Below the pieces are notes generated by a model. That model searched no databases. It was not told the origin of the DNA and was given only the letters and a program-made list of their open reading frames with translations. A program made the translations under genes and the position numbers. Below are positions 38,083 to 40,905 of a stretch of 64,000 bases of DNA, piece after piece. Positions within the stretch are counted from its first letter, which is position 1. Each line of letters begins with the position of its first letter. Source of the stretch: Maritimibacter alkaliphilus HTCC2654 (GTDB lineage: Bacteria > Pseudomonadota > Alphaproteobacteria > Rhodobacterales > Rhodobacteraceae); NCBI RefSeq assembly GCF_000152805.1, contig NZ_CH902578.1:385173-449172 (forward strand), given 5' to 3'.

Positions 38083-38799
38083 TTACTGCGCGGCTTCCGC
38101 TGCGGGTGCGGCGGCCTCGGGGGCTGCCGGCTGCTCGAGCGAGTCATAGGCGGCGGTGAAGCCCTTGAGCGACAGCGGCAGTTCGACCTTCTGGTCGGGG
38201 GCCGCGACCGGCACCACCGTCAGGGTCGCCGAGCCGCCCGCTTTGAACGCCGCCACTTCGGCCGAGGTGTAGCCGATCTGGGCGACACAGCCGTTCGGAT
38301 CGCAGAAGCGGAACGGGTAGCGCTTGGGCGCGGCGCTGTCGACGCCGATGGTCATCTGCTGGGTCAGTAGAACGCCGAGCGGCACGATAATCATCGAACC
38401 GGCTGCGGCCTCGTTGCCTTCCGGCAGCTTGCCGATGGAGACTTTGCCGACCGGCGCGCCTTCGGGCTCTTCACGCAGGAACTGGGTGATCTGGCAGGGC
38501 GCGGGGCCGTCGTTGCCCGGAATGCGCAGGCATTCGCGCTGCCAGTCGTCGAACACTTCGTCGACATAGGTTTCGACCTGCGGCGCTTCCGTCGTTTCGC
38601 CCATGTCGAGGTCCGGGTTGCCGGTCGCTTCGTCAGCGGCGGCCGGGGCCTCTTCGGTTGCGGGGGCGTCGGTGGCAGGCGCTTCGGCGGCAGGCGCTTC
38701 GGCGGCCGGTGCGTCGCCTTCGTTGGTGTCTTGCGCATAGGCCGCACCGCCCAGCGCGATCAGCGCGGCAAGGCCAAGAGGTTTCAGGATCGTTGCCAT
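38083..38799 (-). CDS. Invasion-associated locus B (IalB) family exported protein
   Basis: The 238-residue protein has a signal peptide ending AAYA-Q (about residue 22), then an Ala/Pro/Glu low-complexity linker (about 27-58, repeats of AEAPA) and a C-terminal IalB domain (about 75-215) with the conserved cysteine pairs CLRIPG..PCQI and FCDPNGC. IalB proteins are periplasmic or outer-membrane-associated and common in alphaproteobacteria; outside Bartonella their function is uncertain. The ATG at 38799 starts the signal peptide. A terminator follows and two small-RNA candidates lie upstream on the same strand. Confidence 0.9.
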   Translation of the reverse strand: MATILKPLGLAALIALGGAAYAQDTNEGDAPAAEAPAAEAPATDAPATEEAPAAADEATGNPDLDMGETTEAPQVETYVDEVFDDWQRECLRIPGNDGPAPCQITQFLREEPEGAPVGKVSIGKLPEGNEAAAGSMIIVPLGVLLTQQMTIGVDSAAPKRYPFRFCDPNGCVAQIGYTSAEVAAFKAGGSATLTVVPVAAPDQKVELPLSLKGFTAAYDSLEQPAAPEAAAPAAEAAQ

Positions 38800-38944: not shown

Positions 38945-39015
38945 GAAAAAGGGCCCGCAAACTGCGAACCCTTTCTCGTTTTTTTGTTCTCCCTGCCGGA
39001 CTGGCCGACTTATGG
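38945..39015 (-). ncRNA. Candidate small RNA upstream of ialB
   Basis: On the minus strand a sigma70-like promoter (39021-39049) would start a transcript near 39014. It runs through a purine-rich segment (GGGAGAACAAAAAAACGAGAAAGGG) and ends at a terminator: AAAGGG/CCCTTT with inner CGCA/TGCG, then TTTTT (38946-38953 region). Length is about 70 nt and there is no coding capacity. The hairpin is also followed by T7 on the plus strand, so it could stop transcription both ways. It could instead be a premature-termination leader of ialB, which starts about 150 bp further. Confidence 0.5.
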
Positions 39016-39020
39016 GCAGG

Positions 39021-39049
39021 ACGCTACGATGAAAGATGAGACCCGTCAA
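39021..39049 (-). promoter_or_regulatory. Sigma70-like promoter for the small RNA
   Basis: Minus-strand -35 TTGACG (39049-39044) and -10 TAGCGT (39026-39021) are separated by exactly 17 nt. No gene starts within 200 bp downstream, but a terminator lies about 65 nt after the predicted start, as expected for a small RNA gene. Confidence 0.5.
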
Positions 39050-39171: not shown

Positions 39172-39245
39172 CAAAAAGACCGCGCCCCAAGGGGCGCGGC
39201 AGTCTGACAGGGAGGAAGTCATCCGGACCCAAATGGACATGCGCC
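39172..39245 (-). ncRNA. Candidate cuckoo/CcsR-type small RNA
   Basis: The minus strand has a stem TGAC/GTCA (39221-39218 with 39208-39205) presenting the loop motif CTTCCTCCC (39218-39210), followed directly by a terminator: 9-bp stem CCGCGCCCC/GGGGCGCGG and TTTTT (39177-39173). Loops with CUYCCUCCC next to a terminator hairpin define the cuckoo family, to which the stress-induced CcsR RNAs of Rhodobacter sphaeroides belong; the motif is complementary to Shine-Dalgarno sequences. The 5' end is not visible and is placed only roughly. No DUF1127 gene, the usual upstream partner, is found nearby. Confidence 0.55.
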
Positions 39246-39327
39246 CGGATGCGGATCACTCTGGCAGGAAAGGGTTAAAAATGTATTGTCACCTGAGAAC
39301 GTTGCAGGACTAAGGGGTATTCGGGGC

Positions 39328-40905
39328 ATGGTTGGCGGACTGGACGGGGCGATTTTCGTGGGTGGCGGCGGCGAGGAATACGCCACCAAGCAGGGGTTGC
39401 TCCTGAAATACGCGAACCGGCACGGTCTGGTCGCGGGCGCGACCGGGACCGGCAAGACCGTCACGCTCCAGATCCTGTCCGAAGGGTTCTCCAAGGCCGG
39501 GGTTCCCGTCTTCGTCTCGGACGTGAAAGGCGATCTCTCCGGTCTCGCCGCGACCATGAGCGCCGACCACAAGCTGCATGAGCCATTCCAGAAACGCGCA
39601 GGCATCATCGGCTTCGAGGATTACGCCTACGAGGCGTTCCCGGTCACCTTCTGGGACATCTACGGCGAACAGGGCCACCCGATCCGCACGACGGTGAGCG
39701 AGATGGGGCCGCTGTTGCTCTCGCGTCTCCTCGAGCTCACGGACGTGCAGGAAGGGGTGCTCAACATCGCCTTCCGGGTCGCCGACGAACAGGGCATGCC
39801 GCTTCTCGACCTCGAAGACCTTCAGGCGCTTCTGGTCTGGGTCGGCCAGAACGCCGAAGACCTGTCGCTGCGCTATGGCAACGTCGCCACGGCCTCGGTC
39901 GGGGCGATCCAGCGGGCGCTTCTGGTGCTCGAAAACCAGGGCGGTAAACGGCTGTTCGGGGAACCGGCGCTGGAATTGTCCGACATGATGCGGACCGAGC
40001 CGAACGGGCAGGGGCGCATCTCGATCCTTGCCGCCGACAAGCTGATGGCGTCGCCCAAGCTTTACGCCACCTTCCTGCTCTGGCTGTTGTCGGAACTGTT
40101 CGAGGAACTGCCCGAGGTGGGCGACCCCGACAAACCCAAGCTGGTGTTCTTCTTCGACGAAGCGCACCTTCTGTTCGATGACGCCCCCAAGGCGCTGGTC
40201 GACAAGGTCGAACAGGTTGCGCGGCTCATCCGGTCAAAGGGTGTGGGCGTCTATTTCGTCACGCAAAACCCGGCGGACGTGCCAGAGGACGTGCTGGGTC
40301 AATTGGGCAACCGTATCCAGCACGCCTTGCGCGCCTTTACGGCCAAGGACCGCAAGGATCTGCGGCAGGCGGCGGAAACCTATCGCGACAACCCCCGCTT
40401 TTCGACCGAGGACGCGATCCGCGAGGTCGGCGTGGGCGAGGCGGTGACATCCTTCCTCGAAGCCAAGGGCGCGCCGGGGGTGGTGGAGCGCACGCTGATC
40501 CGCCCGCCGTCCTCGTATCTGGGCTCGATCGACCCGGCCCTGCGCAAGTCGGTGATCGATACTTCGCCCATCGCGGGCAAATACGAAGCCCTGATCGACC
40601 GGGAATCCGCGGCGGAAATCCTCGCCGCCCGCGCCGAAGCGGCGGCGAAAGAGGCCGAAGCGGCGGAAGCCGCCGTTGCCGAACCCGAGGACGCAGCAGG
40701 CCCGCGCGAATTCAACAACGCCCGCCGCTATGACGGGGGCCGCAGCCCAAGCCGGACCACCCGCAAGACCACGAAGAAAGACGACCGCTCGTTCGGCAGT
40801 CAGGTCGGCGAAGAGGTGACCAAGGTCATCATCAAGGAGCTCAAGGGCACCACGGGCCGCCGGATCGTGCGCGGCATCTTCGGAACCATCTTCAAGGCGC
40901 GGTGA
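39328..40905 (+). CDS. HerA-like ATPase, DUF853 (YjgR family)
   Basis: This 525-residue P-loop ATPase of the FtsK/HerA superfamily has Walker A GATGTGKT (37-44) and Walker [10 protein letters not shown] (272-280), then [28 protein letters not shown] containing the arginine/sensor region. The last 90 residues are a coiled, Ala/Glu-rich and then basic tail ([21 protein letters not shown]). E. coli YjgR and relatives have no proven role; the fold suggests a hexameric DNA or protein pump. The 3' end overlaps the convergent LytM gene by 14 nt. Confidence 0.92.

Follow-up and report, generated by a model that had tools for sequence, protein, structure and literature searches.

The window analysed here is a stretch of 64,000 nucleotides from Maritimibacter alkaliphilus HTCC2654. 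Between an ialB-like gene and a divergent gene for a HerA-like ATPase it carries two short elements, both on the minus strand, which we named RNA-A and RNA-B. Five flanking proteins were scanned and correspond to a YkuD transpeptidase, a ketoacyl synthase, IalB, HerA and an M23 peptidase. From herA to ialB, the features are the following.

39286..40905, plus strand: gene for a HerA-like ATPase, the divergent neighbour, start codon uncertain (Pfam HerA_C, 5.6e-218)
39273..39278, minus strand: TTAACC upstream of RNA-A, a possible regulatory element
39173..39251, minus strand: RNA-A, putative alphaR8/Sor-type small RNA, its 5' end placed at the hairpin start and its 3' end at the T-run
39220..39251, minus strand: 5' hairpin of RNA-A, 11 bp (z -3.37 in the window copy)
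39209..39218, minus strand: core CUUCCUCCCU of RNA-A, complementary to AGGGAGGAA ribosome-binding sites
39199..39214, minus strand: CUCCCUGUCAGACUGC, the segment of RNA-A antisense to RNA-B (duplex -31.3 kcal/mol)
39179..39200, minus strand: terminator hairpin of RNA-A, followed by T5 at 39177-39173
39021..39049, minus strand: promoter match of RNA-B (TTGACG at 39049-39044, 17 nt, TAGCGT at 39026-39021)
about 38945..39014, minus strand: RNA-B, candidate sponge RNA (or ialB leader), its 5' end placed from the promoter match
38989..39009, minus strand: GUCGGCCAGUCCGGCAGGGAG of RNA-B, with the hairpin GUCGG/CCGGC, loop CCAGU, then AGGGAG
38977-38945, minus strand: 15-bp terminator hairpin of RNA-B
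38083..38799, minus strand: ialB-like gene downstream of RNA-B (Pfam IalB, 1.7e-32)

RNA-A begins with the 5' hairpin; CUUCCUCCCUGUCAGACU follows unpaired, and a terminator of 9 bp, eight of them GC pairs, closes the element. The linker between hairpin and terminator reads ACUUCCUCCCUGUCAGACU, with CTTCCTCCC at 39218-39210 of the minus strand. The 79-nt element (39251-39173) is predicted to fold into precisely this hairpin, unpaired linker and terminator, with a z score of -4.41 and 0 of 200 shuffles as good; a 91-nt segment starting upstream of RNA-A gave z -2.94, and part of the core was then paired with upstream bases. The earlier note had described a minus-strand 9-bp GC terminator with T5, and we find it as described; the limits given there, 39172-39245, take in the core and the terminator and cut the 5' hairpin short by six bases. 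A lone terminator-like site occurs here at chance level (one found; shuffle mean 1.0), hence it is conservation, and not the terminator-like site alone, that places RNA-A above chance.

From a scan with the HerA protein we took the best 80 loci, and 49 sequences (the window, L017-L063 and L072) were examined closely. Upstream of herA, on the minus strand, CCTCCCTG followed by a T-run is present in 38 of these 49, while L056, L061 and L063 hold neither RNA-A nor RNA-B. Among L064-L071 and L073-L096, exact CTCCCTG was found in L073, L082 and L084 only, with the rest of RNA-A absent; the sequence of L083 begins inside herA and could not show RNA-A. The 38 orthologues, selected by CCUCCCUG itself, carry CUUCCUCCCU in 22 cases and exact UUUCCUCCCU in seven. 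In all of them a hairpin of 9-15 bp is predicted to end 1-7 nt before CCUCCC. Its sequence has a mean identity of 30% among orthologues; the mean z of the region is -2.89, with values below -1 in 33 of 38 and no better than -1 in L032, L048, L050, L052 and L053. The terminator covaries, with double changes in seven of its nine pairs, a number reached by 0 of 500 shuffles, and 22 double-change cells versus 5.2 in shuffles. It is very probable that RNA-A is, as the earlier note held, a small RNA that has been conserved and that carries a terminator and a stretch of anti-Shine-Dalgarno type. We also observed (A)UGUCC in the hairpin loop of some orthologues (window, 39240-39235; L020, L025, L030 and L058).

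Ahead of RNA-A, TTAA[CT] occurs in 33 of the 38 loci and TTAACC itself in 24, and one of the eight loci having RNA-B without RNA-A shows TTAACC. We take CtrA to be a possible binder of this element. On the opposite strand a possible herA promoter, CTGGCA-N17-TATTGT, was read by eye, and the window copy of TTAACC overlaps its spacer.

At the Rfam gathering score the whole window gave no match except a tRNA, and nineteen orthologous loci gave none over RNA-A. With a permissive threshold RNA-A scored 31.7 bits with SorX (gathering score 46.6), 27.2 with SorY (111) and 20.1 with suhB/mmgR (41); in nine orthologous loci, SorX matched all nine (best 36.6 bits) and suhB/mmgR five, the best two reaching 36.7 and 36.5 of 41 bits. 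Weak SorX and SorY matches (E up to 1) also appear in 10 and 8, respectively, of 14 control genomes, none over cut-off. Because its scores stay below gathering, we group RNA-A with the alphaR8/Sor RNAs but outside every curated Rfam family. The window core agrees with nine of the ten positions of the alphaR8 10-mer UUUCCUCCCU and is unpaired in the predicted 79-nt fold. As in MmgR/alphaR8 (RF00519, suhB), a UUUCCUCCCU-type core stands 3' of a hairpin and is followed by a Rho-independent terminator; the hairpin is rather strong, whereas the alphaR8 definition has a weak one. RNA-A further differs from MmgR/alphaR8 in an extra GUYRGACUGG block and in its neighbours, ialB and herA, with no N-formylglutamate amidohydrolase gene among the flanking proteins scanned. 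Such a gene is the neighbour in most species with a single alphaR8 copy (PMC12559287), and extra copies need not have it, since in Caulobacter three of four copies are encoded away from it (PMC12559287). With SorX and SorY of Rhodobacter sphaeroides (RF02784, RF02651) RNA-A shares the 5' hairpin, a CCUCCCUGUYRGAC linker and the terminator, having UUCCUCCCU where their models have ACCUCCCU; it differs in forming a distinct copy with a locus of its own and in scoring below both gathering thresholds. Judged by sequence, RNA-A is alphaR8-like (MmgR/Sis), a sibling of SorX and SorY, and not a member of an Rfam family.

The window genome also holds other siblings. One of them is SorX-like (74.0 bits under the SorX model, over cut-off) and lies 3' of a gene that by eye encodes a response regulator, which fits the reported derivation of R. 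sphaeroides SorX from the 3' UTR of ompR-1 (PMC8625941). A SorY-like copy, adjoining a purL-like gene (named by eye), reaches 56.1 bits with the SorX model, over cut-off, and 59.7 with the SorY model, below 111. The shared-block pattern CTCCCTGNNNGACT has five matches in 4.54 Mb, and its reverse-read control two; the five are the SorX-like and SorY-like copies, RNA-A, a fourth copy and the complement of RNA-B. This fourth alphaR8-like RNA (G000:C4:1886474-1886541, + strand) consists of UUUUUUCCUCCCUGAAGGACUG and a terminator and, by eye, lies directly 3' of a universal-stress-protein-like gene and faces an FNR-type regulator gene. Across the family, the sibling pattern has at least one match in 118 of 120 genomes, each of another genus, not every match being a small RNA; of ten such matches read in other genomes, nine are followed by a T-run. 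Additionally, a fifth element of the window genome (L156, G000:C3 near 15716, minus strand) shows UUUCCUCCCUGAAC, then a possible hairpin and T6; it carries the exact alphaR8 10-mer and lacks the sponge-pairing block. In another genome, sibling-type matches CTCCCTGTTGGACT at G001:C9:60636 and 60818, 182 bases apart on the same strand, may form a tandem pair.

RNA-B, which had escaped the earlier note, is defined by AAGUCGGCCAGUCCGGCAGGGAGAAC about 200 bases downstream of the RNA-A core on the same strand, together with a strong terminator hairpin; its start is placed about 160 bases past the end of RNA-A. The fold of 39015-38939 has a z of -3.92, with 0 of 200 shuffles as good. The strict form is present in 43 of the 49 loci, and variants were recognized by eye in L030, L051 and L055. 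RNA-B accompanies RNA-A in all 38 A loci (35 strict, three variants) and occurs without it in eight of the 49, which argues that it is not for RNA-A alone. All 43 strict copies are preceded by TTGACN-N16-18-(T/C)ANNNT, a pattern count with no shuffle control, with TTGAC(G/C) and a TANNNT box in every case and a spacer of 17 in 42. The hairpin GUCGG/CCGAC is paired in 99.5% of cells; its covariation is weak (one double-change pair, reached by 205 of 500 shuffles) because the hairpin varies little. The strict pattern is found in 92 of 120 family genomes, with six of 120 for the reverse-read control, and a few of the strict matches listed look like chance. Among 240 genomes sampled from the class, three of three family members have it, as does one of 237 others, this last match being chance-like. 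An ialB-like gene lies downstream on the minus strand in 45 of 45 fetched loci with RNA-B, so RNA-B may be a leader of this gene.

RNA-B is antisense to the linker of RNA-A and to the SorX-like, SorY-like and fourth siblings of its genome, so the predicted duplexes show the extended complementarity to a sibling set that is a trait of sponges. Over 36 same-genome pairs the duplex between RNA-A and RNA-B averages -35.9 kcal/mol, with a z of -5.5 versus shuffled RNA-A linkers (weakest -3.7; 36 genomes), and in most relatives about 18 nt take part, with a single position mismatched. The window duplex is among the weaker and consists of nine pairs, a mismatch, four pairs, a one-base bulge in RNA-B and four pairs. 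In the same genome, the duplexes of RNA-B reach -36.8 with the SorX-like copy, -37.7 with the SorY-like copy and -32.1 with the fourth sibling; R. sphaeroides SorY with its own RNA-B gives -38.6. The pairing covers partly the mRNA seed of the siblings and partly bases 3' of it. RNA-A and RNA-B of the same genome did not pair significantly better than combinations across species (permutation p 0.088), because the block is nearly constant everywhere, and species-specific coevolution of the two RNAs was discarded on this result.

Among 295 genomes a single one, G051, exceeds the SorY cut-off, and from this match we take it to be R. sphaeroides strain 2.4.1: the match starts at 1,632,645, and the published 5' end of SorY is 1,632,642 (PMC6238624). 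On the minus strand of this genome CTCCCTG of RNA-A lies at 1,426,723 and RNA-B runs from 1,426,597, both between catalase-like and ialB-like genes named by eye; on chromosome 1 the two elements are placed at about 1,426,757-1,426,677 (RNA-A) and 1,426,600-1,426,534 (RNA-B), which would give RNAs of about 80 and 65 nt. This unit of RNA-A, RNA-B and ialB (L138, C4:1422000-1432000) adjoins catalase-like and LysR-type genes and not herA, so that ialB, and not herA, seems to be the constant companion of the two RNAs. OxyR is presumably RSP_2780. The gene katE is RSP_2779 (PMC3413700), and with RNA-A and RNA-B between catalase and ialB this would put RSs2778 in that gap. RSs2778, renamed UdsE, is described as a 5'-UTR-derived RNA whose 5' end is a transcription start site, whose 3' end is unknown and which is affected by RNase E and PNPase (PMC8625941). 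Its name fits the katE-ialB gap holding RNA-A and RNA-B and, as far as gene numbers go, RSs2778/UdsE is probably RNA-A, RNA-B or both. Two other RNAs were considered as RNA-B and rejected: RSs1624, with a 5' end at 1,724,505 (PMC6238624), far from about 1,426,600, and UpsM/StsR, UpsM coming from the dcw leader at a different locus (PMC8307010).

AGGGAGGAA is the complement of the RNA-A seed UUCCUCCCU. Of 34 such sites in the window genome, 25 stand 2-7 nt ahead of a start codon, and 13 of these 25 belong by Pfam to solute-binding proteins. At 20 sites AGGGAGGAA follows a C: 16 of them precede a start codon, 11 of these in front of genes that Pfam assigns to solute-binding proteins, and the remaining four include the complements of RNA-A and of the fourth sibling. 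After another base (14 sites), nine precede a start codon and two are solute-binding proteins, four of the nine having been put to Pfam and five judged by eye. Across four further genomes with RNA-A and RNA-B, 47 of 77 sites stand 2-8 nt ahead of a start codon, about 25 of these in front of genes for solute-binding proteins. Counted as separate proteins, these are five of 14 after C (DctP 3, TctC 1, NMT1_3 1) and about 20 of 33 after another base (DctP 10, Peripla_BP_6 6, SBP_bac_1 4). The preceding C, suggested by the window genome, thus has no effect in the four others and was rejected as part of the site, which is AGGGAGGAA. In R. sphaeroides, 8 of 12 CAGGGAGGAA sites precede start codons, with no evident solute-binding protein by eye, and genome G010 has six sites, three before start codons and one of these at a solute-binding protein by eye. 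As a control served sites in which GGGAGGAA follows a base that is not A; the 23 of 27 checked included five start-codon sites, with no evident solute-binding protein by eye, too few to carry weight. The apparent excess of solute-binding proteins may alternatively come from strong ribosome sites of highly expressed genes. SorX and SorY have transporter mRNAs as targets, for SorY a malate-transporter mRNA (PMC8307010) and takP (PMC6238624), and targets of the same kind are predicted for RNA-A.

Our main reading, to which we assign a probability of roughly 0.6, is that RNA-A is an alphaR8-type anti-Shine-Dalgarno RNA and RNA-B a sponge of RNA-A and its siblings. If transcribed in Maritimibacter alkaliphilus, RNA-A would pair through its unpaired UUCCUCCCU with AGGGAGGAA ribosome-binding sites and block translation; the mRNAs affected would, in several genomes, often encode periplasmic solute-binding proteins of TRAP and ABC transporters. 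RNA-B would be transcribed in tandem with RNA-A from its own sigma-70-type promoter and, via GGCCAGUCCGACAGGGAG, would pair with the CUCCCUGUYRGACUG common to RNA-A, SorX and SorY and less perfectly with the fourth sibling. In this way it would hide the seed and remove the siblings, releasing the transporters, as CrfA acts on SisA-D in Caulobacter. A wider proposal is that throughout the Rhodobacteraceae one RNA-B upstream of ialB sponges the whole alphaR8/Sor family, including the photooxidative-stress RNAs SorX and SorY, and so sets the synthesis of transporter solute-binding proteins from a single locus, in parallel to CrfA and SisA-D, GUYRGACUGG being kept for the sponge and not for mRNAs; for this we see about an even chance.

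Vogt and colleagues described in Caulobacter crescentus the small RNA CrfA, which sponges four alphaR8 siblings, SisA-D, whose 10-mer UUUCCUCCCU is an anti-Shine-Dalgarno signature, SisA repressing transporter and metabolic genes (PMC12559287). The words SorX, Rhodobacter and Rhodobacterales are absent from the main text of that paper. Both systems comprise several UUUCCUCCCU-type siblings at scattered loci, one RNA antisense to all of them and membrane-transport targets, here predicted. Unlike CrfA, RNA-B is encoded upstream of ialB as the tandem neighbour of one sibling, and the block with which it mainly pairs, CUCCCUGUYRGACUGG, continues 3' beyond the shared core; RNA-B uses its 5' hairpin and linker, whereas CrfA uses its second stem-loop (PMC12559287). 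The two are likened here by arrangement. Since the arrangement is the same in kind, we propose RNA-B as a Rhodobacteraceae sponge, with the ialB leader as its main rival. A literature search with most subscription papers outside its reach found no report of pairing between RNA-B and the siblings.

The earlier note had taken RNA-A for a cuckoo/CcsR (alphar14) RNA with new neighbours. Like the cuckoo RNAs (NfeR1), the conserved RNA-A combines an anti-Shine-Dalgarno pyrimidine stretch, here CUUCCUCCC, with a GC-rich terminator behind it, and that part of the proposal stands; the cuckoo identity itself appears very improbable to us. Cuckoo RNAs are reported to have three hairpins with an identical CCUCCUCCC in the unpaired regions of each (PMC10746234), and their DUF1127 association (CIN1 locus) is given as 'often found' (PMC10253847). 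RNA-A has a single CUUCCUCCCU in its linker, with one (U/C)UUCCUCCCU core that differs from CCUCCUCCC and lies outside any conserved loop, and one CUUCCUCCC motif. A DUF1127 neighbour is missing among the five flanking proteins scanned, as the earlier note had said, and in Rfam it is SorX, SorY and suhB/mmgR that match best. The TGAC/GTCA stem that was to expose the motif in a loop can be drawn, and its pairing worsens when it is shifted by 1-3 columns, but it is in neither predicted fold: its pairs form in 63.9% of cells versus 63.3% in shuffles (38 orthologues), all four together in nine of 32 evaluable orthologue rows, and the actual 5' structure is the upstream hairpin, which has two bases in common with it.

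For RNA-B, the sponge reading has against it that matched pairs do not go beyond general conservation, that the window duplex, with its mismatch and bulge, is among the weaker ones, and that the R. sphaeroides CAGGGAGGAA sites show no enrichment of solute-binding proteins. RNA-B could instead be the ialB 5' leader with an internal terminator, through which the siblings would control read-through or stability of the ialB mRNA, making it a target and not a sponge. The constant ialB-like neighbour, seen by eye also in R. sphaeroides, favours such a leader, and so do the classification of UdsE as 5'-UTR-derived with a transcription start site at its 5' end and the RT-PCR check for sRNA-mRNA cotranscripts of Uds RNAs (PMC8625941). 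However, in the window the terminator hairpin ends RNA-B about 145 bases before the ialB start, and the complementary stretch lies near the RNA-B 5' end and suits all siblings; moreover, both roles can coexist in a target-derived sponge, as SroC for GcvB (cited in PMC12559287). We regard the leader reading as unlikely, roughly one chance in five. Less probable still, though above the cuckoo identity, is that RNA-A and RNA-B are separate regulators whose complementarity arises only from one mimicking a ribosome-binding site and the other being complementary to such a site. AGGGAG in RNA-B and CUCCCU in RNA-A do resemble Shine-Dalgarno and anti-Shine-Dalgarno sequences, and the missing species-specific coevolution agrees with it; yet the pairing in most relatives reaches past the Shine-Dalgarno core into GUYRGACUGG/CCAGUCCGAC, an extension without known ribosome role that is nearly constant in RNA-B and largely kept in the siblings.

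With RNA-B as a sponge, SorX and SorY, studied until now as separate stress RNAs, would join two RNAs not annotated in Rfam in one alphaR8-type sibling set, and RNA-B would be a single conserved element that could switch off the whole set. Both elements are present in R. sphaeroides 2.4.1, which makes the sponge idea directly testable there, and RSs2778/UdsE may gain a function. Furthermore, RNA-based control of this kind could be a way for marine roseobacters to coordinate their numerous TRAP and ABC transporters.
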